DNA of 57,346 bases from an uncultured Acidobacteriaceae bacterium (GTDB lineage: Bacteria > Acidobacteriota > Terriglobia > Terriglobales > Acidobacteriaceae). This document shows positions 7,981-29,801 of this stretch, one piece after another. Below the pieces are notes generated by a model, which worked only from the letters and a program-made list of their open reading frames with translations, did not search any database and was not told where the DNA came from. The stretch's first letter is position 1. Every line of letters starts with the position of its first letter. Both the position numbers and the translations under genes were made by a program. Location: positions 1 to 57,346 of the forward strand of contig CAIVDV010000062.1 of assembly GCA_903904755.1 (NCBI GenBank), read 5' to 3'.

Positions 7981-8673
7981 TCAGCGCTGATCGCGGAGGA
8001 TGGGGCCGGAGGGCTCGATGAGGAGGAAGTCGAGGTAGGCGAGGTTGGGGCCCTTGTTGTATTTGAGGGTGATGAGATTGAGCCCGGCGTGGGTGAAGGA
8101 GATTTCGCCGACGGTGGCCTGGGTCCATTTGTGGGGGCTGCCGGTGTCTTCGGGGAGGGTGAGAGAGGCGGCTTTCTGGCCGTTGAGCCAGAGCTCGGAG
8201 TGGTTGTCGTGGCCGGCGTAGACGGTGATGATGCGGTAACGGCCGGGCTGGAGGACGCGGATGGTGTAGTTGGTCCACTCGCCGTCCTCTTCCCAGCCGA
8301 TGTAGAGCTGGTTGACTTTGGGTTCTACTTTGTTGGGGTGGTTGAAGTCGGCCCAGTCTTTGGTGAAGGAGATGTCGACGCCCTCTTGCTCGCGGAAGAA
8401 GGCGATGTATGCGGGGACGCCGGGACGCCAGTGCTGGATGGTGTGGTTGAGTGCGGAGCCGTCGTTGGTGGGTGTGGTGTCGTGGTAAGCGACGCCCTCG
8501 CCACCGAGGTCGTAGTAGGCGAGCTCGACGCGGCCGGGGATGCGCTGTGGGCCGAGGCGGTACTCCTTGTCGCGGAAGGGCTTGCCGCGATAGCCGGCGG
8601 GGATTTGGGCGGCGAGGGGCAGGGCGAAGAGGACCAGAGATACGGCGAGGGTGAGGGGCGAGAGGCGGGCCAT
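7981..8673 (-). CDS. Secreted CBM6-like carbohydrate-binding protein
   Basis: A 230-residue protein from ATG 8673, which has AGGAG six bases upstream. The leader MARLSPLTLAVSLVLFALPL ends at AAQIPAG. The body (GRVELAYYDLGGEGVAYHDT, VNQLYIGWEEDGEWTNYTIRVLQPGRYRI, FTHAGLNLITLKYNKGPNLAYLDFLLIE) follows the beta-sandwich pattern of carbohydrate-binding module family 6. That includes the GEGVAYHD start and the W-(T/N)Y segment. No catalytic domain is attached. It probably binds plant polysaccharide outside the cytoplasm. It is divergent from the propeller/TPR gene with a shared upstream palindrome at 8743-8756. Confidence 0.7.
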   Translation of the reverse strand: MARLSPLTLAVSLVLFALPLAAQIPAGYRGKPFRDKEYRLGPQRIPGRVELAYYDLGGEGVAYHDTTPTNDGSALNHTIQHWRPGVPAYIAFFREQEGVDISFTKDWADFNHPNKVEPKVNQLYIGWEEDGEWTNYTIRVLQPGRYRIITVYAGHDNHSELWLNGQKAASLTLPEDTGSPHKWTQATVGEISFTHAGLNLITLKYNKGPNLAYLDFLLIEPSGPILRDQR

Positions 8674-8742
8674 TGGGGGCTCCTTTGGGTTGGTTTGGCG
8701 GGGCGGAATTGACGCCCGGAGGCGGCTGAGCAAGTCCGGAAA

Positions 8743-8756
8743 TGAGAACGATACCA
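8743..8756. promoter_or_regulatory. LacI-type operator candidate TGAGAACGATACCA
   Basis: A 14-bp imperfect palindrome with central CG in the divergent gap between the CBM6-like gene and the propeller/TPR gene. It matches the general LacI-family layout TGnnAACGnTnnCA. It resembles the sites at 12668-12681 and 25963-25976. The encoded LacI regulator at 11494 is the obvious candidate (inference). Confidence 0.45.
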
Positions 8757-8858
8757 CATTTGGGGCGGAGAAGTGGAAGGGGGATTCTGCGCGGGTGCAG
8801 TGGGGATTGCCGCGAGGGACGGCGGCAGTATACAGAATTTCATTTACACGCATGAAGA

Positions 8859-11493: not shown

Positions 11494-12555
11494 ATGAGCG
11501 AGGACGGGTCGGGCAAGAAGACGAAACCAGCGAAGGTTCCGACGTTAAGTCGCAAGCCGACGATGAGCGATGTGGCGCGGTTGGCCGGAGTGGGCACGAT
11601 GACGGTGTCGCGGGTGCTGTCTGGGACGGCGGTGGTGAGCCCGGAGACGGCACAGCGGGTGCGGACGGCAATTGAGCAACTGCGGTACAGGCCGAACGAG
11701 ATAGCGCGGGCGTTTCGGGGGCAGCGGTCGAAGACGATTGGGCTGATTCTGCCGTATTTGTATGATCCGTTTTTTGGCAACTGCGCGCATGCAGTGACGC
11801 GGGTTGCGAAGGAGAACGGGTACACGGTGATTATTGCCACCTCCAACGAGGATCCGGAGACGGAGTATGGGGAGGTAGACCGGATGCTGCAGCGAGAGGT
11901 GGACGGGCTGGTGGCGATTCCGGCTCGGCAGCATGACTCGATTTTGGGGAGGAATCTGCTGGGTAGGACGCCGCTGGTGGTGTTTGACCGGCTGGTGGCG
12001 GACCGGACGGTGGATGCGGTGACGGTGGAGAACCTTGCGGGAGCGCAGAAGATGGTGGACCACCTGATTGGGCACGGGCACCGACGGATTGCATTTATGG
12101 GATTGAGCCGGGATATCTTCACGATCAACGAGCGATTCCTGGGGTATCGGCAGGCGATGCAGGATGCGGGGCTGGTGGAGGATGCGTTTTTTGGGTGCGA
12201 CTCCGAAGAGGGCACGGTGGCGGCGCTGAAGCAGAAGATGGCGAGCGGGAATGCGCCGACGGCGGTGTTTACGTCGAATACGCTGGCGACGCGGTATGTT
12301 CTGTCGGCGATTCTGCACCTGGGGATACGGATACCGGATGAGCTTGCGTTTGCGGGATTTGATGACTTTGACATGGCGGAGTTTACGGCGCCACCGCTGA
12401 CGGTGGTGCGGCAGCCTGCGCAGCAGATGGGCGAGGCGGCGACGAAGTTGCTGATTGAGCGGATTGCCCAGGGAGAGATTCCTGGTACGGGGAGCCGGGT
12501 TGTGCTGCCGGTGGAGCTGGTGCTGCGGAGCTCATGCGGGTGTACGAACCGGTAG
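11494..12555 (+). CDS. LacI-family transcriptional regulator
   Basis: A 353-residue protein. ATG 11494 is chosen because an AAAGGG site lies just upstream and earlier in-frame sequence does not look like protein. The helix-turn-helix is TMSDVARLAGVGTMTVSRVL (residues 23-42), followed by the hinge helix region YRPNEIARAFRGQRS. The periplasmic-binding-protein-like effector domain runs to the end (TIGLILPYLYDPFF, VVFDRLVADRTVDAVTVEN, FAGFDDFDMAEFTAPPLTVV). It is predicted to bind DNA as a dimer and respond to a sugar. Its position inside the mannoside locus and the LacI-type palindromes at 8743, 12668 and 25963 suggest it controls this locus (inference). The C-terminal SSCGCTNR is cysteine-rich. 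Confidence 0.92.
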   Translation: MSEDGSGKKTKPAKVPTLSRKPTMSDVARLAGVGTMTVSRVLSGTAVVSPETAQRVRTAIEQLRYRPNEIARAFRGQRSKTIGLILPYLYDPFFGNCAHAVTRVAKENGYTVIIATSNEDPETEYGEVDRMLQREVDGLVAIPARQHDSILGRNLLGRTPLVVFDRLVADRTVDAVTVENLAGAQKMVDHLIGHGHRRIAFMGLSRDIFTINERFLGYRQAMQDAGLVEDAFFGCDSEEGTVAALKQKMASGNAPTAVFTSNTLATRYVLSAILHLGIRIPDELAFAGFDDFDMAEFTAPPLTVVRQPAQQMGEAATKLLIERIAQGEIPGTGSRVVLPVELVLRSSCGCTNR

Positions 12556-12598
12556 GGGTGTGACGATGATATCGGTATCTATATAGATGACATTTCTC

Positions 12599-16353: not shown

Positions 16354-16388
16354 TCTAACGGTACGCGAATGAGGGGTATCCGGTTAGA
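16354..16388. promoter_or_regulatory. Inverted pair TCTAAC-N23-GTTAGA
   Basis: Exact inverted 6-mers separated by 23 bases. The same pair with a 24-base spacer is at 25710-25745 upstream of the TonB receptor. Possible binding site for a dimeric regulator. Confidence 0.4.
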
Positions 16389-16503
16389 TGGGAGCGGTGT
16401 GAGTGCGCGTGCCTTGTGCTTGGAATGGGCGCAAAGCGGGCGGATGCGGGGGATGGGGGAAGCGGCGGGGGGAGAGGCTGAGAGTAACGTGCGCTGGGTT
16501 GCG

Positions 16504-16553
16504 GGATAGACACGCTTCTAACGTAGTTGGCGGGGATGTGGTGCGGCTAGAGT
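16504..16553 (+). promoter_or_regulatory. Conserved promoter block, copy 1
   Basis: Begins GGATAGACACGCT, then T, then CTAACGTAGTTGG. After a 17-base gap comes TAGAGT (16548-16553), a possible -10. The copy at 25985-26034 is identical in 26 of the first 27 bases and has the same gap to TAGAGT. CTAAC-GTA-GTTGG is a near-perfect inverted repeat overlapping the putative -35 region. It precedes the symporter operon. Confidence 0.6.
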
Positions 16554-16753: not shown

Positions 16754-18133
16754 ATGATGCGGGAGAAGGAGAAGCCGGTCATCCTGATGCCGGAGCGGCT
16801 GGGGTATGCGGCGGGGGATTTGGCGAGTTGCCTGTACTACAACACGTTCAGCTTGTTCCTGATGTATTTCTACACGGATGTGTTTGGGATAGGACCGGCG
16901 GCGGTGGGGACGCTGCTGCTGGTGACGCGGACGTGGGACAACTTTGTGGATCCGGTGGTGGGGATGGTGGCGGACCGGACGACGACGCGTTGGGGGAAGT
17001 TTCGGCCGTGGATTCTGTTTGGGTGTGTGCCGATTGCGGTGGCGGGAGTGGCTGCGTTCCATACGCCGAACCTGAGTGCGCCGGGGAAGCTGATTTACGC
17101 CTATGTGACGTACTCGCTGCTGATGCTGATGTTTACGGTAATCAACATTCCTTATGGTGCGCTGCTGGGGGTGTTGACGCGGGATACGAACGAGCGGACG
17201 CGGCTGAGTTCGTACCGGTTTCTGGGTGCGTTTACGGGGAACTTTGTGGTGCAGGCGACGCTGCTGTGGTTGGTGAAGCACCTGGGGGGAGGGAGCGAGC
17301 AGAAGGGCTTTACGCTGGCGATGGGGGTGTACGGGGTGATGGCGGTGGGGCTGTTTCTGACGACGTTCCGGACGACGCGGGAGCGGGTGCGGAGTGCGGC
17401 GGATCGGGCATCGTCGGTGGGCAAGGATTTGTGGGACCTGGGGAAGAACGGGCCATGGATGGCGCTGGGGATGGTGAGCATCCTGTGCCTGGTGTGGATT
17501 TCGGTACGGAATGCCTGCCTGGTCTATTACTTCAAGTACTACGTGGGTGCGGAGCAGATGACGGCGACGTACCTGGTGGCGGGTACGCTGGCGACGCTGG
17601 CGGGCGTGACGGTGACGGCGAAACTGGTGAGCTTCTTTGGCGGGAAGAAGCGGGCGTACATCTGGCTGACGGTGTTTTGCGGGATTGCGAATGGAGCGAT
17701 GTATTTTGCGAGTCCGAAGAATTTTGGACTGATGTATGCGAGCCAGATTGTGATGTCGTTTTTCCAGGGGCCGCTGTTCCCGATGATATGGGCGATGTAT
17801 GCGGATACGGCGGATTATGCGGAGTGGAAGTTTGGACGGCGGACGACGGGGCTGATTTTTTCAGCGGGGACATTCTCGCAAAAGATGGGCTGGACGGTGG
17901 GCGCGGCGACGGCGGGATGGTTGCTGGGGTACTACGGGTTCAAGGCGAATGTGGTGCAGAACACGGGAACGCTGTTTGGGATACGGGTGATGGTGAGCCT
18001 GTTGCCTGCGGCGGCGTGCGGTGCGACGGCGGTGGCGGCGTTGCTGTATGGCATTACGCAGCCAATTGAGAAGCGGATGGGTGAAGAGTTGACGGCACGC
18101 AGAGAGTTGAGTGCCGAAGGAATTGGAGAGTGA
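16754..18133 (+). CDS. GPH-family (MelB-like) sugar:cation symporter
   Basis: A 459-residue, 12-TM major-facilitator protein. The signature of glycoside-pentoside-hexuronide symporters is at about residues 55-80: WDNFVDPVVGMVADRT, with the paired aspartates that bind cation and sugar in MelB, then GKFRPWILFG. IPYGALLGVLTRDTNERTRL matches the central loop. It imports small glycosides across the inner membrane. First gene of a six-gene operon, and since the next gene is a GH130 phosphorylase, short beta-mannosides are the likely cargo (inference). It starts at ATG 16754 or 16757 with a weak ribosome site. Confidence 0.9.
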   Translation: MMREKEKPVILMPERLGYAAGDLASCLYYNTFSLFLMYFYTDVFGIGPAAVGTLLLVTRTWDNFVDPVVGMVADRTTTRWGKFRPWILFGCVPIAVAGVAAFHTPNLSAPGKLIYAYVTYSLLMLMFTVINIPYGALLGVLTRDTNERTRLSSYRFLGAFTGNFVVQATLLWLVKHLGGGSEQKGFTLAMGVYGVMAVGLFLTTFRTTRERVRSAADRASSVGKDLWDLGKNGPWMALGMVSILCLVWISVRNACLVYYFKYYVGAEQMTATYLVAGTLATLAGVTVTAKLVSFFGGKKRAYIWLTVFCGIANGAMYFASPKNFGLMYASQIVMSFFQGPLFPMIWAMYADTADYAEWKFGRRTTGLIFSAGTFSQKMGWTVGAATAGWLLGYYGFKANVVQNTGTLFGIRVMVSLLPAAACGATAVAALLYGITQPIEKRMGEELTARRELSAEGIGE

Positions 18134-18143
18134 GGAGATGACG

Positions 18144-19133
18144 ATGAGCAAGAATGCGACAGTGGTGGGCGAAGCGATTCCGAATTTGCCATGGCAGGAG
18201 CGGGCGGAGGGAAGCCGGGAAGTGCTGTGGCGATACAGCGAGAACCCGATTCTGGGATGGAATCCGGTGGGGCGCGCGGCGCGAATCTTCAACAGCGCGG
18301 CTTGGCCGCATGAGGGTGGTTTTGTAGGTGTGTTTCGCGCAGATCACAGGAATGCGATGCCGGATTTGCACTTTGGCCGGAGTGCGGACGGCGTGCAGTG
18401 GGAGATTGATGCGGAGGTGATTCCGTGGCAGAACGAGGCTGGCGAGCGGGTATACAACAGGAACTACGCGTATGATCCGCGGCTGGTGAAGATTGATGAG
18501 ACGTTTTACGTGATTTGGTGCGACGACTTTCCGGGGCCTTCGATTGCGCTGGGGCAGACGAAGGATTTCAAGACGTGGGTGAAGCTGGAGCGTCCGCTGA
18601 TGCCGTTCAACCGGAATGGGGTGCTGTTTCCGCGGAAGATAGGCGGGGAGTATCTGCTGCTGAGCCGGCCGAGCGACTCAGGGCATACGCCGTTTGGGGA
18701 TATTCTGCTGTCGCACAGCCGGGATTTGACGTATTGGGGCAAGCACCGGCTGGTGATGCAGCGGCAGCCGAACAACTGGTGGGAGAGCACGAAGATTGGC
18801 GCGGGGCCGATTCCGATTGAGACGCGCGAGGGGTGGCTGCTGTTCTACCACGGGGTGATTACGAACTGTAACGGGTATGTGTACAGCATTGGGGCGGCGC
18901 TGCTGGATTTGGAGGACCCGTCAAAGGTGCTGTACCGGACGCACGATTATCTTTTGTCGCCAGAGATGCCGTACGAGACGGTAGGATTTGTGCCGAACGT
19001 GACGTTCCCGTGCGCGGCGCTGTGCGATGCGCCGACGGGGCGGATTTGCCTGTACTACGGGGCTGCGGATTCGTATACGGCACTGGCGTTTTGCCAGGTG
19101 GATGAACTGCTGGAGCACTTGAAAGGGAAGTAG
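18144..19133 (+). CDS. GH130 beta-mannoside phosphorylase
   Basis: A 329-residue cytoplasmic protein without a leader, the normal GH130 size. ATG 18144 is preferred: AGGAG (18133-18137) overlaps the symporter stop and is 6 bases upstream, whereas an in-frame ATG lies at 18138. Family motifs visible: GRAARIFNSAAWPHEGGFVGVFRA, AYDPRLVKI (its Asp, about residue 111, is the expected proton donor), NGVLFPRKI, WESTKIGAGPIPI and CLYYGAADSYTALA. GH130 enzymes split beta-mannosides with phosphate, giving mannose 1-phosphate. Acceptor (mannose, glucose or GlcNAc) cannot be decided from this sequence. Coupled by spacing to the symporter and to the GH2 gene, which starts 6 bases after its stop. Confidence 0.9.
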   Translation: MSKNATVVGEAIPNLPWQERAEGSREVLWRYSENPILGWNPVGRAARIFNSAAWPHEGGFVGVFRADHRNAMPDLHFGRSADGVQWEIDAEVIPWQNEAGERVYNRNYAYDPRLVKIDETFYVIWCDDFPGPSIALGQTKDFKTWVKLERPLMPFNRNGVLFPRKIGGEYLLLSRPSDSGHTPFGDILLSHSRDLTYWGKHRLVMQRQPNNWWESTKIGAGPIPIETREGWLLFYHGVITNCNGYVYSIGAALLDLEDPSKVLYRTHDYLLSPEMPYETVGFVPNVTFPCAALCDAPTGRICLYYGAADSYTALAFCQVDELLEHLKGK

Positions 19134-19139
19134 GGAGCG

Positions 19140-21740
19140 ATGCGAAGAGCTTGCTGGATGTTGGCGATGATGTGCGGGCTGCCGATGGTGGCGATGGGAG
19201 ATGGACCGGTGGAGAAGGTGACTCAGGCGGTGGCCGCGGGCTGGGAGTTTCGCCAGGTGCATGCGCGGGTCGGCGAGACGGATGGCGCGTGGAGGCCAGC
19301 GGTGGTGCCTGGCGTGGTGCATGCGGATTTGCTGCGGAACAAGCTGATTGGGGACCCGTATTATCGCGACAACGAGAGCAAGGTGCAGTGGATTGAGCGG
19401 GCGGACTGGGAGTATCGCACCGAGGTGGAGGTGAGCGCGAAGCTGCTGGGGATGCAGCATGTGGAGATGGTGCTGGAAGGGCTGGATGCGGTGGCGGAGG
19501 TGCGGGTGAATGGCGCGCTGGTGCTGAAGGCCGACAACATGTTCCGCGAGTGGCGGGTGGATGTGAAGGGAAAGCTGAAGCCGGGGAAGAACGAGATTGC
19601 AGTGAGCTTTCCGAATGTGGGTGCCGAGGCGGCGAAGGTGGCGGCGACGGACCCGTGGAGGAAGCTGACGCAACCGCTGCCGGCAGAGAAGACGTATGTG
19701 CGCAAGGCGGCGTTTGAGTATGGCTGGGACTGGGGTCCGCGGCTGGTGACGGTGGGGATTTGGAGGCCGGTGCGGTTGGAGGGATGGAATGCGGCGCGGA
19801 TATCCAACCTGTATGTGCGGCAGAAGGATGTGAGCCAGACGGTGGCGCGGGTGGTGGTTGAGGCGGAGGTGACTGCGGCGGGCGAGGAGCGGGCCGAAGT
19901 GGAGGTTCATGCGGCGCTGGGGGGCTTTGAGAAACAGTGGACTGTGGTGGCGCAACTGCATGCCGGGGTGAACCAGGTGAGTGTGCCGGTGGAGATTGCG
20001 AAGCCGGAGCTGTGGTATCCGGCGGGATATGGGGCGCATCCGCTGTACCGGTTTGAGGCGAGCGTGCGGGTGGGCGGCGTGCGTGTGGATGTGCGAGAGG
20101 CGAAGGTGGGGCTGCGATCGATTGTGCTGCGCAGGGATGTGGACGAGTGGGGACGGTCGTTTGAGCTGGTGGTGAACGGGATACCGGTGTTTGCCAAGGG
20201 CGCGGATGTGATTCCGTTTGATGCGCTGTTTACGCGGGTGACGACGGAGCAGTACCGGAGCGTGCTGGAGTCGGCGGTGGCGGCGAACATGAACATGGTG
20301 CGGCACTGGGGCGGGGGGTACTACGAGACGGATGAGTTCTACGCGATTTGCGATGAGCTGGGGATTATGGTGTGGCAGGACTTCATGTTTGGCAATGAAT
20401 GGCAGCCGGGGACGTACAGCTTCAAGCTGAACGTGGAGAAGGAAGCGGAGGAGCAGGTGCGGCGGCTGCGCAACCATCCGAGCGTGGTGCTGTGGTGCGG
20501 GAACAACGAGACGGAGACGTCGTGGCAGTGGGCGCAGAATGCGGACGTGATCAAGGCGCTGCCTGCGGATGTGCAGCGGCATATGTGGCAGGACTATCTG
20601 ACGCTGTTTTCAGGAGTGATAGCGCGGGCGGTGGAGCGTGGGGAGCCGGAGGTGCCCTACTGGCCGAGTTCGCCGAGTGCGGACTATGAGGATACGAGCG
20701 AAACGTACCAGTCAGGGGACATGCACAACTGGGCGGTGTGGCACGGGATGCTGCCGCTGAAGGGATATGAGAAGAGCTTTCCGCGATTCATGACGGAGTA
20801 TGGTTTCCAGTCGTTCCCGGAGATGCGGACTGTGGAGTCGTTTACGGAGCCGGAAGACAGGACGGGGATAACGACGCCGGTGATGCTGGCGCACCAGAAG
20901 AATGTGGCGGGGAACCAGAAGATCCACGAGTACATGCTGCGGGATTATCCGGAGCCGAAGGATTTTCGTTCGTTCCTGTATGTGAGCCAGGTGCTGCAGG
21001 CAGAAGCGGTGAAGATTGGCGCGGAGCATTTGCGGCGGATACGGCCGCGGTCGATGGGGTCGATTTACTGGCAGTTGAATGACTGCTGGCCGGTGGCGTC
21101 GTGGTCGAGTCTGGACTACTACGGACGCTGGAAGGCGCTGCACTATTATGCGCGGCGGTTCTACAACGATGTGCTGGTGCTGCCGCATGAGGAGGATGGC
21201 GGGGTGGCGGTGTATGGGGTGTCAGACCGGGTGGCGGGGAGCGATGCGCGGCTGCGGGTGCGGCTGATGACGATGGACGGAAAGGTGCTGAAAGAGATGG
21301 AGCAGGCGGTGACGCTGCCGGGGCTGAAGAGCACGGTGCTGGCGCGAGTGGCGGAGGCGGAGTGGCTGAAGGATGCGGATGGAGCGCGGGTGTTCCTGGT
21401 GGCCGAGCTGATGGCGGGCGGCAAGACGGTGTCGCGGAATCTTCTGTTCTTCCGGGAGACGAAGGATGTGCGGCTGGAGCCGGCGAGGCTGGAGACGACG
21501 GTGAGCCCGATGGGGGGCGGATACCGGGTGCGAGTGGCCGCAAAGGTGCTGGCGCGGGATGTGTATGTGGAGACGGGAAGTGTGGATGCGAAGGTGAGCG
21601 ACAACTACTTTGATGTGCTGCCGGGCGAGGTGGTGGAGATTGAGGTGAAGACGGCGGCGCCGGAGGCGGAGTTCCGGAAGGCGCTGCATGTGATGAGCCT
21701 GACGGATGCGTTTGCGGCAGGGAATTTTGCAGCGAAGTAG
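19140..21740 (+). CDS. GH2 beta-mannosidase, exported
   Basis: An 866-residue enzyme with a probable leader (ACWMLAMMCGLPMVAMG). Sugar-binding domain (WEFRQV...VPGVVHADLL, FEYGWDWGPRLVTVGIWRPV), Ig-like domain (200-330), then the TIM barrel with RHWGGGYYETDEFYAICDELG. The acid/base is in LWCGNNE (E about 457) and the nucleophile in FMTEYGFQSFPE (E about 553), as in GH2 mannosidases. It removes terminal beta-mannose from oligosaccharides. Predicted periplasmic, while its operon neighbour GH130 is cytoplasmic, so two alternative routes for the same substrates seem present. GGGAG upstream supports the start. Confidence 0.92.
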   Translation: MRRACWMLAMMCGLPMVAMGDGPVEKVTQAVAAGWEFRQVHARVGETDGAWRPAVVPGVVHADLLRNKLIGDPYYRDNESKVQWIERADWEYRTEVEVSAKLLGMQHVEMVLEGLDAVAEVRVNGALVLKADNMFREWRVDVKGKLKPGKNEIAVSFPNVGAEAAKVAATDPWRKLTQPLPAEKTYVRKAAFEYGWDWGPRLVTVGIWRPVRLEGWNAARISNLYVRQKDVSQTVARVVVEAEVTAAGEERAEVEVHAALGGFEKQWTVVAQLHAGVNQVSVPVEIAKPELWYPAGYGAHPLYRFEASVRVGGVRVDVREAKVGLRSIVLRRDVDEWGRSFELVVNGIPVFAKGADVIPFDALFTRVTTEQYRSVLESAVAANMNMVRHWGGGYYETDEFYAICDELGIMVWQDFMFGNEWQPGTYSFKLNVEKEAEEQVRRLRNHPSVVLWCGNNETETSWQWAQNADVIKALPADVQRHMWQDYLTLFSGVIARAVERGEPEVPYWPSSPSADYEDTSETYQSGDMHNWAVWHGMLPLKGYEKSFPRFMTEYGFQSFPEMRTVESFTEPEDRTGITTPVMLAHQKNVAGNQKIHEYMLRDYPEPKDFRSFLYVSQVLQAEAVKIGAEHLRRIRPRSMGSIYWQLNDCWPVASWSSLDYYGRWKALHYYARRFYNDVLVLPHEEDGGVAVYGVSDRVAGSDARLRVRLMTMDGKVLKEMEQAVTLPGLKSTVLARVAEAEWLKDADGARVFLVAELMAGGKTVSRNLLFFRETKDVRLEPARLETTVSPMGGGYRVRVAAKVLARDVYVETGSVDAKVSDNYFDVLPGEVVEIEVKTAAPEAEFRKALHVMSLTDAFAAGNFAAK

Positions 21741-21758
21741 AAGCAGAGGAGACGGTGA

Positions 21759-22751
21759 ATGGCGATGGCGGAGTATGTGGCGGCGGCGGGACGGTATGAC
21801 GGGATGGTGTATCGGCGGTGTGGGGCGAGCGGGGTGAAGCTGCCGGCGATATCGTTTGGGTTGTGGCAGAACTTTGGCGGAGCGGAGTTGCAGGAGAGCT
21901 GCCGTGCGATGGTGCTGCGGGCGTTTGACCTGGGGATTACTCACTTTGACCTGGCGAACAACTATGGGCCGCCGCCGGGAAGCGCGGAGACGAATTTTGG
22001 GCGGATCTTGCGAGGGGATTTGGGGCACTACCGGGATGAGCTGGTGGTGAGTACAAAGGCGGGCTACGATATGTGGCCAGGGCCGTATGGGGAGTGGGGA
22101 TCGCGGAAGTATATGCTGGCGAGCCTGGACCAGAGTTTGCGGCGAATGGGGCTGGAGTACGTGGATATCTTCTACTCTCACCGGCTGGATCCGGAGACTC
22201 CGCTGGAGGAGACGATGGGTGCGCTGGCGCAGGCGGTGCGCGTGGGCAAGGCGCTGTATGTGGGGATATCGAATTACCCGGCGGCGGAGACGGCGGAGGC
22301 GGTTCGGTTGCTGGGGGAGATGGGCGTGCGGTGCCTGATTCATCAGCCGAAGTACTCGATGTTTGTGCGGACGCCAGAGGAGGGAGTGCTGGGCGTGCTG
22401 CGGGAGAAGGGGATGGGCGCGATTGCGTTCAGCCCGCTGGCGCAGGGGCTGCTGACGGACCGGTATGCGACGGGAGTGCAGGCGGGCACGCGGGCGGCGA
22501 GGATGGAGTCCCTGAAGAGCGAGGATGTGGAAGGACGGATGGCGCAGGTGCGTGCGCTGGCGAAGCTGGCCGTGGAGCGCGGACAGACGCTGGCGCAGAT
22601 GGCGATTGCGTGGGTGCTGCGGGATGGCGTGGTGACGAGCGCGCTGGTGGGCGCGAGCAGCGTGGCGCAACTGGAGCAGAATGTGGCGGCGCTGGAGAAG
22701 CTGGAGTTTACGGCGGGTGAGCTGACGGCGATTGAGCAAATTCTGGGCTGA
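21759..22751 (+). CDS. Aldo/keto reductase (YghZ-like)
   Basis: A 330-residue NADPH-dependent TIM-barrel reductase. The catalytic tetrad can be read: Asp and Tyr in HFDLANNYGP, Lys in VVSTKAGYD, His in FYSHRLDP. KYMLASLDQSLRRMGLEYVDIF and AFSPLAQGLLTDRY follow the YghZ/voltage-channel-beta subgroup, with WVLRDGVVTSALVGAS as the C-terminal cofactor segment. It has no leader. It is the fourth gene of the operon with a GAGGAG ribosome site. Substrate unknown. Its location suggests it handles an aldose or ketose released from the imported glycoside (inference). Confidence 0.9.
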   Translation: MAMAEYVAAAGRYDGMVYRRCGASGVKLPAISFGLWQNFGGAELQESCRAMVLRAFDLGITHFDLANNYGPPPGSAETNFGRILRGDLGHYRDELVVSTKAGYDMWPGPYGEWGSRKYMLASLDQSLRRMGLEYVDIFYSHRLDPETPLEETMGALAQAVRVGKALYVGISNYPAAETAEAVRLLGEMGVRCLIHQPKYSMFVRTPEEGVLGVLREKGMGAIAFSPLAQGLLTDRYATGVQAGTRAARMESLKSEDVEGRMAQVRALAKLAVERGQTLAQMAIAWVLRDGVVTSALVGASSVAQLEQNVAALEKLEFTAGELTAIEQILG

Positions 22752-22761
22752 GGAGCGGTGG

Positions 22762-23757
22762 ATGGTGCGGTTTGGGATTGCGGGATATGGGCTGCATGCG
22801 GCGAAGCGGCTGGCACCGGCGCTGAAGGCGGCGAAGGGCTGCGAGCTGGTGGCGCTTTCGCGGAGAAATGTGGCGCAGGCGGAAGCGGATGCGGCGGCGC
22901 TGGGGTTGAAGTATGGCGTGGGCTCGACACGGGAGTTGTGTGCGCTGGCGGAAGTGGATGCGGTGGTGGTGACAAGCCCGAATGCCATGCACCATGCGGA
23001 TGTGATGACTTGCCTGGAGATGGGCAAGCATGTGCTGTGTGAAAAGCCGATGGGGCTGCGGGTGGAGGAGGCTGCTGCGATGGTAGCCGAGGCGAAGCGG
23101 CGGCGCCTGGTGCTGGGTGTGGCGCAGAGTTACCGGTTCTGCTGGTCACTGGAGTTTGCGCGGGATTGCCTGAAGAGTGGGGAGATTGGCAGGGCGGTGG
23201 CGTGCCGGGTGGACTTCAGCTTTGTGGGCTTGAACAGCGAGCGGCGGTGGCTGACGGATGCGGCGCTGGCCGGTGGCGGACCGATTGCCGATATTGGGGT
23301 GCACGCGGTGGATGCGATGCGGTATGTGCTGGACGAGGAAGTGGAGAGCTGCACGGCAGTTACGACGCGGGATGCGGAGAGCGGGGGAGTGGAGGCAAGC
23401 GCGGCGCTGAGTTTGCGGTTCCGGAGTGGAGCGCTGGGGACGAGCGTGGTGAGTTTTCGCTCGCCATATGACACACATCTTGAGGTGCTGGGGAGGAAGG
23501 GCCGGCTGGTGGCGCGGCACGGGCTGGATGTGGATGCACCGGTGGCGATGGAAGTGGAAGGCGAGGCGGGCAGCCGGGTGGTGATGGTGGACAATCGGGG
23601 GCTGTATGAGCGGCAGATGGAGGCATTCAGCGAGGCGATTGAGAAGGGCACCAAGTTTGTGGCGACGGGCGAGGATGGGGTGAAGAATCAGCGGGTGCTG
23701 GATGCGCTGTTTGAGAGTGCGCGGGTGGGCAGCACGATTTGGGTGGAGGGAGAGTGA
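22762..23757 (+). CDS. Cytoplasmic Gfo/Idh/MocA-family oxidoreductase
   Basis: A 331-residue protein. ATG 22762 follows GAGGAG at the stop of the reductase gene, and the protein opens directly with the Rossmann strand VRFGIAGYGLHA. The hinge motif is LCEKPMG (about residue 98). The C-terminal domain carries GGGPIADIGVHAVDAMRYVL, with the aspartate and histidine typical of the active site. Without a leader it is the cytoplasmic member among the three Gfo/Idh proteins here. Operon context points to oxidation or epimerisation of a sugar from the GH130/GH2 pathway. Exact substrate not readable. Confidence 0.88.
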   Translation: MVRFGIAGYGLHAAKRLAPALKAAKGCELVALSRRNVAQAEADAAALGLKYGVGSTRELCALAEVDAVVVTSPNAMHHADVMTCLEMGKHVLCEKPMGLRVEEAAAMVAEAKRRRLVLGVAQSYRFCWSLEFARDCLKSGEIGRAVACRVDFSFVGLNSERRWLTDAALAGGGPIADIGVHAVDAMRYVLDEEVESCTAVTTRDAESGGVEASAALSLRFRSGALGTSVVSFRSPYDTHLEVLGRKGRLVARHGLDVDAPVAMEVEGEAGSRVVMVDNRGLYERQMEAFSEAIEKGTKFVATGEDGVKNQRVLDALFESARVGSTIWVEGE

Positions 23758-24169: not shown

Positions 24170-25558
24170 CTACTGGACGCGGAATGCGACGGGTTCGACG
24201 TGGACGGGGATGTTGTCGCGCGCCTGAATGTGGAGCAGGACCTGCCAGTTGGCGGGGACAGAGTGGTCCGAGGAGAGGGCGCGGAGCTTTTCCCAAACGG
24301 GGCGCATGGCGCGGGGGTCAGCGAAGAAGGAGCCAACGCCGGCGGTGCCGGTGCTGGTGATTCCGCCGAGGACGAGGATGCGGGTGCCTGAAGGCGATTG
24401 CGTCATCCAAATGAGACCGTAATCGTCGAGCAGCGGCCCGTTGCGCTTGTGGGGATACTCGGCGAGTTCGCCGGGCTGGGGCTTGGTGTTGTGGATGGTC
24501 TCGTATTCAATGACAAAATTTGCGGCGGCGATGGTGCTCATCCAGGAGCTCATGTGAGGGCCGCCGAGGACGACGAGGTGCTCGGTGCGTGCTGCGTCCC
24601 AGTTGAGGAAGCGCGCCTCAGTGAGCTGGGCGGGCTGGTTGAGTGACTGGAAGAGGCCGCCCAGCTCAAAGGCGGTTTTGGCTTCGCCCATGCCGGTGTA
24701 TTCGCCGTTGTTGAGCTCGAGGGCACGGTAGGGGAAGCTGAGCCAGCGGGGATCGGCGACGGTACCAATCTGTGTGGCCAGAGGTTCAGAGAGAGGGAAC
24801 TCGTAGGTGCCCATTTCCTGGGTGGTGACGGGCTGGTTGCTGCCCCGGTAGCGGAGTGTATTGGGGTCAGAGAGGACGATCCTGGTAGGGATGGCGGAGC
24901 TGGTGGCCATGGGGCCGAGGAGGTCGTTGTAGATGGAGAATTCGCGATCGGTGGCGGCGTTGTGGAAGATGTTCCAGCGAGCGGGGATGAAGGCCTGGGA
25001 GAGGAATGCACCGAGGAGAAGACAGCCGAGGGCGATGAGGGGGAGCTGAAACCAGGGGGCGCGCCGGGCGGCGAGGGGTGCAGGGGGGGCGGGAGGCGGT
25101 GCGGGAGCGTCTGACACAGGTTGGGGGGGTGCGGAGGGCCTTTCGACCGGAGCCGGCTCTGCGGGCTGGGCGTGGAGGATGCTGAATTCCGGGATGTAGG
25201 AGCCGGAGGGGAGACGGATGGCGAGCTCGTGCTCGGCGGCCTCGGCATAGAACTGGTTGAGGCGCTTGCGGACGTCGTTGGCGCTGACGCGGACGATGGC
25301 ATCCTGACTGGTATCGTAATCAGCGGGACGATGGAAGATTTCGATGCCGAGGATGCGCTCCTTGAGGCGGTCGTTTTCGCCCTTGAGTGCGAGTTCGACG
25401 AGGTGGCGGAGGAGTTCCTGGCTTCGACGGCTGCCGTGAAAGGCATCGCTCAAGAGAATTTTCTCGAGGGTGTGGAGAATCTCAGCTCGTAACCGTGGGA
25501 TCTCAGAGTCAACAAGGATGACCAGGCCGGGTTCCCGTTCTCGAGATGAAGTGGTCAA
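24170..25558 (-). CDS. Membrane-anchored regulator-like protein, TTG start
   Basis: A 462-residue protein. The start is TTG 25558, supported by GGAGG four bases upstream and no suitable ATG nearby. The N-terminal 120 residues (SRRSQELLRHLVELALKGENDRLKERILGIEIFHRP to YDTSQDAIVRVSANDVRKRLNQFY and LPSGSYIPEF) match a domain common in Acidobacteria in front of cyclase, TPR or propeller regions. That domain resembles a winged-helix DNA-binding fold. A proline/alanine linker and one TM helix (PLIALGCLLLGAFLSQAFI, about 185-205) follow. The C-terminal 250 residues are presumably periplasmic and unrecognised. It may sense a periplasmic signal and act on DNA. It lies between the two conserved promoter blocks. 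Confidence 0.55.
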   Translation of the reverse strand: MTTSSREREPGLVILVDSEIPRLRAEILHTLEKILLSDAFHGSRRSQELLRHLVELALKGENDRLKERILGIEIFHRPADYDTSQDAIVRVSANDVRKRLNQFYAEAAEHELAIRLPSGSYIPEFSILHAQPAEPAPVERPSAPPQPVSDAPAPPPAPPAPLAARRAPWFQLPLIALGCLLLGAFLSQAFIPARWNIFHNAATDREFSIYNDLLGPMATSSAIPTRIVLSDPNTLRYRGSNQPVTTQEMGTYEFPLSEPLATQIGTVADPRWLSFPYRALELNNGEYTGMGEAKTAFELGGLFQSLNQPAQLTEARFLNWDAARTEHLVVLGGPHMSSWMSTIAAANFVIEYETIHNTKPQPGELAEYPHKRNGPLLDDYGLIWMTQSPSGTRILVLGGITSTGTAGVGSFFADPRAMRPVWEKLRALSSDHSVPANWQVLLHIQARDNIPVHVEPVAFRVQ

Positions 25559-25709
25559 GCTGCCTCCAAGAGAGAACCCAGTATAGCAGGGACGTAACAG
25601 GTTAGAACGCGGAAGAGTGCGGGAATTGGGGGTGCGGGAGAGGGGGAGTGAAAGACGGAAGGAGGAGATGCGAGGGGCGGAGAGGGTGGAAACGGGAGGA
25701 AATCCTGCG

Positions 25710-25745
25710 TCTAACGTAGGCCGGAAATTGAGCTATCAGGTTAGA
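25710..25745. promoter_or_regulatory. Inverted pair TCTAAC-N24-GTTAGA
   Basis: Counterpart of 16354-16388 with a one-base-longer spacer. Its left arm continues as CTAACGTAGG, matching the CTAACGTAG core of the promoter blocks. Confidence 0.4.
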
Positions 25746-25962
25746 CGGGGTGATTTCGGGGGAATTTGCGGGAGAGTTGAGGAGATTTGGGAGTGTGGAG
25801 AGAAGCGGGAGGGAGGAAGGTGGTTGAAAAGCGATTTTCCTGAGGAAAGCGGGGGCGGCTTGAGTATGGCGTGGGGAGAAAACGGGGGTGGAGGAGATGT
25901 GTTGCAGGGGTGGAGGAGGGGTGAAAGAGAGCAGGATTGCCGGCGGGAAGTGCGGGCGGGCA

Positions 25963-25976
25963 TGATAACGTTCCCA
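25963..25976. promoter_or_regulatory. LacI-type operator candidate TGATAACGTTCCCA
   Basis: A 14-bp imperfect palindrome with central CG, nine bases upstream of promoter block copy 2. It shares its left half-site with 12668-12681. The position suggests control of the TonB receptor by the LacI regulator at 11494 (inference). Confidence 0.5.
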
Positions 25977-25984
25977 TTGAGGAT

Positions 25985-26034
25985 GGATAGACACGCTCCT
26001 AACGTAGTTGGTGCCGATTGGAAGCGCATAGAGT
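25985..26034 (+). promoter_or_regulatory. Conserved promoter block, copy 2
   Basis: GGATAGACACGCT, then C, then CTAACGTAGTTGG, 17 bases, then TAGAGT at 26029-26034. Only one base differs from 16504-16530 in the first 27, and spacing to TAGAGT is identical. It lies about 100 bases before the TonB receptor start. Confidence 0.6.
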
Positions 26035-26135: not shown

Positions 26136-29100
26136 ATGCAAAAATTTCAGCGAGTGCGCAACCTCTTGATTTGCCTTCTCCTGTTTAGTCTGCAGTGCGT
26201 CGTGTCCCATGGACAGACGCCGACAGGCACCATTCAGGGAGTGGTGACGGACAAGACCGGAGCAGCAATCCAGGGAGCATCGATTACGATTGTCCGGACA
26301 TCGACGAACGAAGAGCGCAAGGCGGCGACGGACGCTGCGGGGCGTTACACGTTTGTGTTTGTGGAGCCGGGTACCTACAACGTGTCGGTTTCGGCGGCCG
26401 GCTTCAAGGGGGAGACGGAGAACGGGATTCTGGTGCAGGTGACCGAGACCCGGCCTTTGAACTTCAAACTGGAAGTTGGCGCCGTGACCCAGAACGTGGA
26501 AGTGAGCGCGCAGGACCAGCAGAGCCTGGATACGCAGACGTCGAGTCTGGGCCAGACGATCCAGACAGATACGATGCTGCAACTGCCAGACCAGGGCCGA
26601 AATCCGTTTGATTTCGCATTTCTGGTGCCTGGCGTGAACAACGTAGGCGGAGCATCGACCCCGCATATCGGCGGCAGCCGTAACGGGAACAACGAGCAGT
26701 TGATTGACGGCATGACGAACATCACGCCGGAAAACAACATTGGCAACAACATCAGCACGTATCAGCCGGTGGAAGACAGTGTGCAGGAAATCAATGTGCA
26801 GACGAATGTGCTTCCGGCGGAGAACGGGCGCTTCTCGGGAGGCACTGAGAGCCTGGTGACGAAGAGTGGCGGCAATGCGTGGCATGGGACGTACTTTGAG
26901 TTCATCCAGAACTCAGCGCTGAATGCTGCCAGCTTTGCGGGTATTGGGAACAAGCGGTCAAAGAATGCCGCGTCGCACCAGTACCAGTCTGGCGGAACAG
27001 TGAGCGGACCGATTCTCAAGAACCGGGCGTTCTTCTTCTTTGACTTCCAGTACACGAGCCAGGCATCCGGGACGGTAGCGAGCGACAAGGTTCCGTCAGC
27101 GGACTTTACGACCGGCGACTTCACGAGCCTTTTTGGAGCGACAACGCCGGTGCTGTTTGACCCGGATACGGTTGCACAGAATGAGCAGGGCGTATACGAG
27201 CGTCAACCGTTCCAGGTTAACGGCAAGTACAACGTGATTCCCACGGAGCGGATTTCGCCGGTAGCAGCGGCGGCGCTGAAGTACTTCCCTGGCGCGAACC
27301 TGAGCGGCAAGCAGGCGTATGAAAACAACTACAGCGTGTCGGGCGCGGTGCCTGGTTCGGACTGGCACTTTGACTCTCGCGAAGATGCCGACATCACGTC
27401 GAAGTGGCATGCTTTCCTGCGCTATTCGATGGACAGCAACAAGTACAACACGTTCAACGACTTCAACAACGCGGCGAGCAATGGCGGCTACGGCGGCCAG
27501 GGTCACGGCTATACGTACAGCGGCTCGTTCAACAACACGGTGACGTTCTCGCCGACGCTGTTGGGTGAGTTCCGGTATGGTTATTCGCGGCAGACGTCGA
27601 ATCGCGTGCCGGCGGGCGGAACGTTTGACCCGACGAAGCTGGGCTTTGACTCGGCTTACGCGAACCAGGCGTCGCAGCAGTTGTCGATTTTCCCGCACTT
27701 TGGGTTTGGCGGCGCGAACAACGGCTACTTCACGGATCTTGGTCCGCTGGGCTACGAGGGATTGCAGGAAAATCCTCTGGCGCAGTCGATCAATGGCAGC
27801 CTGGTGAAGATTGTGGGCGGCCACACGTTGAAGGTAGGCGGCGAGTTCCGCAGCCTGCGATTGAACTTCTACCAGTACACGTATCCTTCGGGCGATTTCT
27901 ATTCGGATGACTCGTGGACGCGACAGTTCCCGGCGACGTTTGACGGCAACACGGGATCGCCAACGGGCTACTCGGTTGCATCGCTGCTGCTGGGCCTGCC
28001 GTCGAGCGGGCGCATCACGAATGATCCGAAGTACATCACGACGAGCCAGTATTGGGCATCTTACATTCAGGATGACTGGAAGGTGAGCCCGAAGCTGACG
28101 GTGAATGTGGGACTTCGGTATGACTTTGAAGTACCGCGCGAAGAAGCCCACAACCAGATGGTGTACTGGGATCCGACGGCGGTGTCTCCTTTGCAGGGGA
28201 ACTCGCTGATTTCAACCGCACTGGGAGCGAGCGGGGTGAGCTGCCCGCACTGCAACAACCTTCGTGGCGCGATGAATATTGTGGGCGCGGCGGGGTCGAT
28301 GTATGGCCGGCGGCAGGGCCCGGTGCAGAAGGGGGACTTTGGTCCTCGTCTGGGCCTGGCATATAACGCGACGCCGAATCTGGTGGTGCGCGGTGGACTG
28401 GGTATCGTGTACCAACCCTCGGCGCTGCAGGCCTCGGGTACGTCCGGCGGTTCGGGTGATGACGGCTTTGATGTTGAGTCGGATATGCACGCGAGTTTTG
28501 ACAATCAGCAGAGCCTGCCGGTGGCAACCCTGTACAGCCCAGATCCGAACCTGCCTGCTTCGGCGAAGAATCCCTTCCCGAGCGGGTATGCGACGGCACA
28601 GGCGAAGGATCCGACGTGCCTTGGGAATGCGCTTTGCACGCAGGGCATTGACATCGGCAACGGGATTTCGACGGCGTACTTTGATACGTACCGGAATCCG
28701 TACTCGATCCAGTGGAACCTGAATGCGCAGTATGCGGCGCCCTGGGGACTGAAGCTGGAAGTTGGATATCTTGGCAACCGAGGACTGTTCCTGGTGAACG
28801 GCGACCCTGGCTTGCCGATTGACCAACTGACGACGAACACGCTGGCAGCCAATGGCTGCACGGTTGGCGCAACGACGGCCCAGTGCCACTTGCTGGACCA
28901 GGTAGCGAATCCGTTCCAGGAGGCGATTGGGCCGGGATCGCCGTATTATCTGCCCGGATTGTCTCTGGGTGGATCGACAGTGAGCCGCGGTCAACTGCAG
29001 CATCGTTATCCGCAGTACAACGGAGTGAGCACGTTCCGCAAGCCGGATTCGGCCTCATTCTATAACGGGTTCACGTTCAGCGCGCAGAAGTCCTCGTCAA

Positions 29101-29801
29101 AGGGCCTGAGCTTTACGTATGCGTTTACGTATGGCAAGGAGTATGACAACGGTGCTTCGCCGGTGGGCTACCTTGGACCGACCTCGGGCACATATGCCGA
29201 CCAGTACAACCCGAAGGCAGAATGGGGCATTGGTGCGCAGAATGTGTTGTGGAACCATGCGGCGAGCTTCCAGTATGAGCTTCCGCTGGGCCACGGTCGT
29301 GCGTTCCTGAACCATGGCAATGCTGTCTCAGACCGTGTGGTTGGGGGATGGCAGATCTCCGGGATTGAGAACTACAGCGCGGGAACGCCTGTGGTGCTGG
29401 GCGGAGTGAACAACGGTACGACGCAGTCGACGTATGGCGGCCTGGGACAGCGCCCGGATTGGGCGGGAACGAGTCCGAAGCTGCCGAGCAAGAGTGCGAA
29501 GCTGTGGTTCAACCCGAACGTGTACTCGATTCCGCTGCCGTTCGAGATTGGCAACGCGCCGCGCACGATTGGCGTAAACCAGCCGAACTACCAGAACCTG
29601 GATTTGCAGATTGCGAAGAACACGCGGTTTGGGCATGAAGACAAGTTCAACTTCCAGGCCCGGCTTGAGATGTTCAACGCGTTTAACCATGCGAGCCTGG
29701 GTGGTCCGGGCACGTCGGTGGGAAGCGGCAACTTTGGTGTGATTCAGAATTTTTCGGGTACGGCCCGCAGGATTCAGTTCGCAGGAAAGTTCGTTTTCTA
29801 A
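26136..29801 (+). CDS. Oar-like TonB-dependent outer-membrane receptor
   Basis: A 1221-residue protein from ATG 26136 (AAGGGAAGAG upstream). The signal peptide is NLLICLLLFSLQCVVSHGQ. The N-terminal carboxypeptidase-regulatory beta-sandwich is about 28-115 (GTIQGVVTDKTGAAIQGASI, DAAGRYTFVFVEPGTYNVSV). A plug-like domain (about 120-250: LPDQGRNPFDFAFLVPGVNN, RNGNNEQLIDGMTN) follows, then a long beta-barrel ending in FAGKFVF, the terminal aromatic expected for outer-membrane insertion. Probable importer of oligosaccharides too large for porins, serving the flanking glycosidases (inference). No canonical SusD partner is present. Codon use is C-ending (AAC, TTC, TAC), unlike its GGG/CGG-rich neighbours, suggesting strong expression. 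Confidence 0.92.
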   Translation: MQKFQRVRNLLICLLLFSLQCVVSHGQTPTGTIQGVVTDKTGAAIQGASITIVRTSTNEERKAATDAAGRYTFVFVEPGTYNVSVSAAGFKGETENGILVQVTETRPLNFKLEVGAVTQNVEVSAQDQQSLDTQTSSLGQTIQTDTMLQLPDQGRNPFDFAFLVPGVNNVGGASTPHIGGSRNGNNEQLIDGMTNITPENNIGNNISTYQPVEDSVQEINVQTNVLPAENGRFSGGTESLVTKSGGNAWHGTYFEFIQNSALNAASFAGIGNKRSKNAASHQYQSGGTVSGPILKNRAFFFFDFQYTSQASGTVASDKVPSADFTTGDFTSLFGATTPVLFDPDTVAQNEQGVYERQPFQVNGKYNVIPTERISPVAAAALKYFPGANLSGKQAYENNYSVSGAVPGSDWHFDSREDADITSKWHAFLRYSMDSNKYNTFNDFNNAASNGGYGGQGHGYTYSGSFNNTVTFSPTLLGEFRYGYSRQTSNRVPAGGTFDPTKLGFDSAYANQASQQLSIFPHFGFGGANNGYFTDLGPLGYEGLQENPLAQSINGSLVKIVGGHTLKVGGEFRSLRLNFYQYTYPSGDFYSDDSWTRQFPATFDGNTGSPTGYSVASLLLGLPSSGRITNDPKYITTSQYWASYIQDDWKVSPKLTVNVGLRYDFEVPREEAHNQMVYWDPTAVSPLQGNSLISTALGASGVSCPHCNNLRGAMNIVGAAGSMYGRRQGPVQKGDFGPRLGLAYNATPNLVVRGGLGIVYQPSALQASGTSGGSGDDGFDVESDMHASFDNQQSLPVATLYSPDPNLPASAKNPFPSGYATAQAKDPTCLGNALCTQGIDIGNGISTAYFDTYRNPYSIQWNLNAQYAAPWGLKLEVGYLGNRGLFLVNGDPGLPIDQLTTNTLAANGCTVGATTAQCHLLDQVANPFQEAIGPGSPYYLPGLSLGGSTVSRGQLQHRYPQYNGVSTFRKPDSASFYNGFTFSAQKSSSKGLSFTYAFTYGKEYDNGASPVGYLGPTSGTYADQYNPKAEWGIGAQNVLWNHAASFQYELPLGHGRAFLNHGNAVSDRVVGGWQISGIENYSAGTPVVLGGVNNGTTQSTYGGLGQRPDWAGTSPKLPSKSAKLWFNPNVYSIPLPFEIGNAPRTIGVNQPNYQNLDLQIAKNTRFGHEDKFNFQARLEMFNAFNHASLGGPGTSVGSGNFGVIQNFSGTARRIQFAGKFVF

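Follow-up and report, generated by a model that had tools for sequence, protein, structure and literature searches.

Duplicated promoter elements in a mannan-use locus of an uncultured Acidobacteriaceae bacterium and a candidate transmembrane regulator encoded between their targets

Described regulators of comparable design

In Bacteroidetes, SusR and HTCS are membrane regulators of polysaccharide loci, found beside a TonB-dependent receptor (TBDR) and glycosidases. The locus described here has a similar arrangement, since a candidate membrane regulator likewise adjoins a TBDR and glycosidases, but neither kinase nor response-regulator parts were seen in it, and its predicted DNA-binding and sensor domains are others. 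One-component regulators of the CadC/ToxR type offer a further likeness, with a predicted cytoplasmic DNA-binding N-terminal domain (N-domain), one transmembrane (TM) helix and a periplasmic sensor domain; the candidate differs from them in that its N-domain has no significant Pfam match and in its BcsB-like periplasmic domain, the place of which is taken by a GH16 domain in another member of the same family. The predicted helix order and two-strand wing of the N-domain recall the OmpR/PhoB winged helix (PF00486), although there is no significant sequence relation and one branch of the family has 13-bp palindromic sites, whereas PhoB-type sites are direct repeats. Finally, the local control of sugar transport is shared with the LacI-family sugar regulators, and both a LacI gene and LacI-type sites are present in the locus; these sites, however, belong to a different type, TGATAWCG, which has CG at its centre.

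Transmembrane transcription regulators have been surveyed with Pfam DNA-binding models and, according to the available parts of that work, their mean number per genome is higher in Acidobacteriae than in other prokaryotes (PMC10269533). Judging from the methods given there, a survey of membrane regulators that depends on Pfam would probably overlook the family of the candidate, because its N-domain has no significant Pfam match. The family is not described in the available part of PMC3174227, and the papers listed by searches of the open-licence PMC literature included neither a description of the family or of its site nor a paper on the switching of the TBDR genes of this class, for which a first look gave 35 to 189 TBDR-like candidates per genome among the matches listed.

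The shared elements of the two promoters

The window, i.e. the whole stretch of DNA analysed (57,346 nucleotides), contains a mannan-use locus with two target promoters 9.5 kb apart. One precedes a GPH-family sugar:cation symporter gene (16754-18133, + strand), the first gene of a presumed operon, inferred from strand and spacing, which continues (18141-23757, +) with a GH130 mannoside phosphorylase, a GH2 mannosidase, an aldo/keto reductase and a GFO/IDH/MocA oxidoreductase. The other precedes a TBDR gene (26136-29801, +; CarboxypepD_reg and OMP_b-brl_4). None of the other 60 genomes had a match to the GH130 gene at E<=1e-60 from which footprinting in relatives could have started.

Upstream of the symporter operon lies the 27-bp block GGATAGACACGCTTCTAACGTAGTTGG (16504-16530, +) and upstream of the TBDR gene its counterpart GGATAGACACGCTCCTAACGTAGTTGG (25985-26011, +); direct comparison confirmed the identity of 26 of the 27 bases reported in the initial annotation, as well as the occurrence of TAGAGT 17 bp past each block (16548-16553 and 26029-26034, both +). 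Each block ends in a near-palindrome, CTAAC-GTA-GTTGG on the symporter side (16518-16530, +) and its equivalent on the TBDR side (25999-26011, +). The inverted repeat had been placed over a presumed -35 element; a simple scan for a consensus sigma-70 promoter recognised none in either region, for which reason the presumed -35/-10 arrangement rests on TAGAGT, itself without a sigma-70 match as a -10. The core TAACGTAG was indeed found at the two further places already reported, giving four copies in the window (16519, 25712, 26000 and, inverted, 45853), against 0.22 expected. The sequence around the blocks had been called unrelated; this holds for the spacers on either side, but the two promoters have TAACGT in register as well (16485-16490 and 25966-25971, +), starting 19 bp before the block, and a second element is also common to both.

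This second element, upstream of both blocks, is an inverted pair of CTAAC and GTTAG. TCTAACG opens it at 16354 and at 25710, and TATCCGGTTAGATGG (16377-16391) has its counterpart in TATCAGGTTAGACGG (25734-25748), the full copies being TCTAACGGTA...TATCCGGTTAGATGG (16354-16391, +) and TCTAACGTAG...TATCAGGTTAGACGG (25710-25748, +). The copies differ by 1 bp inside and by 125 bp in their distance to the block. The pattern TATCMGGTTAGAYGG matches exactly at these two places only, its 11 other matches having two mismatches, while a control pattern gave 8 matches. A terminator-like hairpin (16396-16413) separates the ASPIC/UnbV gene from the symporter block.

The genome to which the window belongs (4,224,583 bases, 83 contigs, 97.5% complete) was searched for further copies. 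The 26-bp core of the block has exactly two matches with up to three mismatches (none for a control pattern) and CTAACGTAGTTRG has two exact matches, in all cases the same two blocks, both of them in promoter regions; the block is absent from all 99 other relatives searched. Since neither duplicated element occurs elsewhere in the genome at that similarity, a scattered repeat, which the initial annotation had named as the finding that would speak against its proposal, can be discarded. Furthermore, CTAAC is scarce across the window (18 occurrences against 38 expected), and 7 of the 18 fall in the two intergenic regions (1055 bp), where 1.17 would be expected and none of 2000 shuffles reached 7; all four CTAACG sites there continue with (G)TA. 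The two elements and TAACGT being shared, and CTAAC being in excess in the two regions taken together, it is very likely that one factor acts on both promoters, as had been proposed; two separate duplicated elements, unique at that similarity, give this proposal good support.

Candidate readers of the sites

For the factor, which the initial annotation had left without a name, the evidence now points to the product of the gene at 24170-25558 (- strand) as the best candidate. This gene lies between the two targets, divergent from the TBDR gene, and four CTAAC/GTTAG sites stand between the two; a GTTAG outside the second element (25601-25605, +) is found 43 bp upstream of it. At E<=0.001, neither Pfam nor NCBIfam gave a match for the 462-residue protein. 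An AlphaFold2 model built with 66 family members (mean pLDDT 84, pTM 0.59) predicts an N-domain of helices and a two-strand wing (residues about 17-127), a single TM helix (173-197; hydropathy 2.03 over the 19 residues 174-192) and a periplasmic alpha/beta domain (about 208-462). The latter is most similar to BcsB (Z 12.4, rmsd 3.4, 166 residues aligned; Foldseek E 4.7e-3), closely followed by the N-terminal domains of GH67/GH115 (Z 7.7-10.1, GH67 reaching 10.1) and an S-layer domain (9.8).

The N-domain, folded alone, reached a pLDDT of 92.8, and all 12 top entries of its comparison by VIA-align were OmpR/PhoB-type DNA-binding domains, at Z 5.7-6.9 where the guide value of the tool is 8; the best structural neighbours were PrrA, SaeR and PhoB. 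Foldseek alone had none of these entries in its match list for the N-domain. A profile comparison (hhalign) with the 13 PF00486 domains of the same genome was not significant (E 0.077, 2 of 10 column shuffles scoring the same or higher), and a Pfam search for PF00486 (Trans_reg_C) among the 66 family members matched a single one, at E 0.093. Thus, the modelled fold makes a winged helix likely, and none of the sequence comparisons links the N-domain significantly to PF00486.

Relatives of the gene at E<=1e-45 were found in 9 of 399 genomes of the class, its own included (8 non-self). Upstream of the five closest (42-47% identity; 1358 bp of upstream DNA, the stretch from genome G436 running to the contig end), CTAAC occurs seven times, in four of the five (2.18 expected; as many in 10 of 2000 shuffles), and CTAACGTR three times, in three of the five (0.06 expected; 0 of 2000 shuffles), the latter pattern being partly post hoc in that R was added after genome G152 had been read, while plain CTAAC comes from the window alone. 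G436, which belongs to another family, carries TCTAACGTAGGC, with 12 bases identical to the window at 25710, and G152 carries CTTCTAACGTGGTTAACG, the window counterpart of which is CTTCTAACGTAGTTGGCG. G061 (42%) has no CTAAC upstream and has two copies of TCTTAACCG instead; the more distant relatives in G442, G251 and G254 (33-34%) have no CTAAC upstream of the gene. The claim for the site rests on the close relatives, because the whole family has no excess of CTAAC.

Our main reading, to which we give a probability slightly above one half (about 0.55), is that the blocks serve a local regulon as its operators and are bound by this candidate transmembrane one-component regulator. The core of the site would be YCTAACG(G)TA, present at the block as the near-palindrome CTAAC-GTR-GTTRG. 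We infer that the predicted cytoplasmic winged-helix N-domain would bind these sites, and that the BcsB-like periplasmic domain would sense a product of glycan breakdown and thereby change the state of the N-domain. The active regulator would then aid RNA polymerase at both target promoters, in which no sigma-70 consensus can be recognised; that it activates and does not repress is the step of which we are least sure. The regulator would also control the promoter of its own gene, via the sites near the start of that gene. The LacI-family repressor would probably provide a second input, a cytoplasmic sugar signal acting at the TBDR promoter through TGATAACGTTCCCA.

The same LacI regulator (11494-12555, +) could instead be the factor that binds the block, which would then be a degenerate LacI operator. 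It is part of the locus, its relatives adjoin those of the TBDR in genomes G172 and G135, TAACG is common to the block and the LacI-type sites, and the site TGATAACGTTCCCA (25963-25976, +), which contains the TAACGT of the TBDR promoter, stops 8 bp short of the TBDR block on its upstream side. Sites of the type TGATAWCGNTNNCA (up to one mismatch) were found in the window at 8743, 12567, 12668 and 25963, as well as at 25309 inside the candidate gene (six matches where 0.5 would be expected, one site being counted on both strands, with a pattern partly drawn from these very sites). LacI thus probably has its own sites in the locus and a regulon overlapping the one studied here, which suggests that a second regulator also acts at the TBDR promoter. 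The 27-bp block, on the other hand, has no match to TGATAWCGNTNNCA at up to one mismatch. In the intergenic DNA of 29 LacI loci (of 30 non-self LacI matches), TGATAWCG, a pattern settled on once three of these loci (G172, G135 and G022) were known, occurs 14 times in 10 loci, palindromic copies being counted on both strands, against none for the reversed word, while CTAACG occurs 4 times and its reversed word 29. The loci of the five close relatives of the candidate have 4 CTAACG in 2 loci (reversed, none) and no TGATAWCG, and no LacI match was found in the 8.9-20 kb read around those that bear sites. Moreover, the promoter of the 83% identical TBDR in G172 has TGATAACGATACC and no CTAAC, in a locus with a LacI relative (68%, same recognition helix) and without a relative of the candidate. 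A LacI reader of the block is unlikely, though it stays a rival to be taken seriously. G135 speaks in its favour, since CTAACGTG adjoins the LacI gene there.

The blocks might also be a type of promoter served by an alternative sigma factor or by a regulator coded elsewhere, the divergent gene being a bystander. The lack of a sigma-70 consensus in both regions would fit, as would the register held from TAACGT through TAGAGT and the presence of TAACSGTAG in other intergenic DNA of the family loci (8 matches, against 6 upstream of the family genes). Two copies in the genome are few for a sigma regulon, though, and relatives of the divergent gene, including one from another family, are preceded by like sites; we consider this explanation improbable. 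It is far harder to maintain that a repeat or mobile piece was recently duplicated without regulatory meaning: the high identity over 27 bp and the nearness of the copies would follow from it, but not the unrelated spacers on both sides of the block between which TAACGT, TAGAGT and the second element were kept, nor the internal and distance differences of that element, nor the restriction of the block to two promoter regions. Least credible of all is an action of the block in an RNA leader, as riboswitch or attenuator; its position upstream of both target genes would allow it, yet the window has no Rfam match at gathering scores, and neither of the two 50-mers forms a fold better than expected by chance, since 185 and 172 of 200 shuffles, respectively, folded at least as well.

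The proposed reading by the divergent gene product was further compared with the loci of five TBDR relatives, which gave a mixed picture. In G172 the TPR-LacI-TBDR-TPR-ASPIC order is syntenic, but the TBDR is inverted and the candidate regulator is missing from the stretch read; the TBDR promoter has no CTAAC, two GTTAG, neither of them part of CTAACG, stand upstream of its LacI gene, and another member of the regulator family is present elsewhere in the genome. Set beside the window, this locus offers a natural case of the same receptor wired in two ways. In G220, the 12 kb read contain no family member, and the TBDR promoter lacks CTAAC. In G135, CTAACGTG lies at 2444 of the locus and a perfect TGATATCGATATCA is also present, with no family member in the 14 kb read. 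In G239 the TBDR faces away from a weak, divergent family member and a single GTTAG lies in between, and G200 has a divergent family member without a site. As regards the LacI-type sites of the window, those at 12567 and 12668 adjoin the LacI gene and that at 25963 lies at the TBDR, while that at 8743 is 116 bp before a TPR reading frame starting at 8859 and possibly inside an unassessed frame (7981-8853).

The wider family of the candidate regulator

The candidate belongs to a putative regulator family whose genes are widespread in the class and frequently divergent from a TBDR gene. A single-sequence scan of contigs gave no relative, and an alignment-based scan found them; among whole genomes, 69 of 151 in the class (own included) have a relative at E<=1e-40. 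The family was sampled as the best 80 of 136 contig matches plus 30 loci from whole genomes, and a TBDR-like reading frame is divergent to the family gene in 54 of the 107 cases with enough flank.

Upstream of 112 family genes, the top hexamer is ACGGTA/TACCGT (63 against 15.4 expected) and the top 8-mers are GTATGATA and GTATCATA (15 against 0.5 expected each). GTAN3TAC palindromes, counted on both strands, reach 2.63 per kb beside family genes against 0.21 per kb in other intergenic DNA, the reversed control giving 4 and 16 matches. CTAAC, in turn, is not enriched across the whole family (65 against 69 for the reversed control) and ranks 92nd among the pentamers upstream of family genes (82 against 67 expected); it was rejected as a motif of the whole family, its upstream positional peak being mostly a general intergenic pattern and the reversed control being as frequent. 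A motif search by EM in the upstream regions returned motifs of low information and no usable matrix. Genes with the same type of site group together on the protein tree (for both labels, none of 500 shuffles gave as low a value), a result which near-copies inflate, with a loose CTAAC label (CTAACG or TCTAAC) and 44 of 106 rows having neither type.

In six loci (L081, L083, L084, L088, L090 and L092), a spacer of 17 bp (18 in L090) lies between TAGACA and a downstream -10-like TATSAT overlapped by the 13-bp palindrome ACGTATSATACGY, and autoregulation of these six promoters is probable. ATAGACA was also considered as an operator half and rejected for these palindrome loci, where TAGACA resembles a -35; in the window no -10 of this kind comes after it.

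Taken at its broadest, the comparison would suggest a large family of Acidobacteriota TM regulators without a Pfam DNA-binding domain, with interchangeable glycan-sensing domains (BcsB-like or GH16), each controlling neighbouring TBDR and glycosidase genes through branch-specific operators, CTAACG(G)TA or ACGTATSATACGT. This proposal is tentative, and we rate it somewhat below even odds; if true, the family would be the counterpart in this phylum of the SusR/HTCS wiring of Bacteroidetes. With a regulator family that adjoins receptors, has an operator that can be read and carries a sensor domain open to testing, it would become possible to predict regulons throughout the phylum and to approach the question of which glycan each receptor takes up.

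The GH16 variant is found in the same genome as the window: a 617-residue protein (contig C75; 199-2049, -, of locus L013) combines a related N-domain (37% over query residues 45-137) with a GH16 domain and a hydrophobic helix apparent by eye, and its glycosidase fold is perhaps used as a sensor part. Two plasmid loci of Granulicella tundricola have a family gene annotated as hypothetical protein beside GH2 or GH16 and TBDR genes, each with one GTAN3TAC palindrome (2/2). Finally, related N-domains are found on 240 plasmid records, many of them rhizobial, and three alphaproteobacterial proteins of this kind, on inspection, carry TPR repeats, a sub-threshold FlgO match or an AAA_16 domain.
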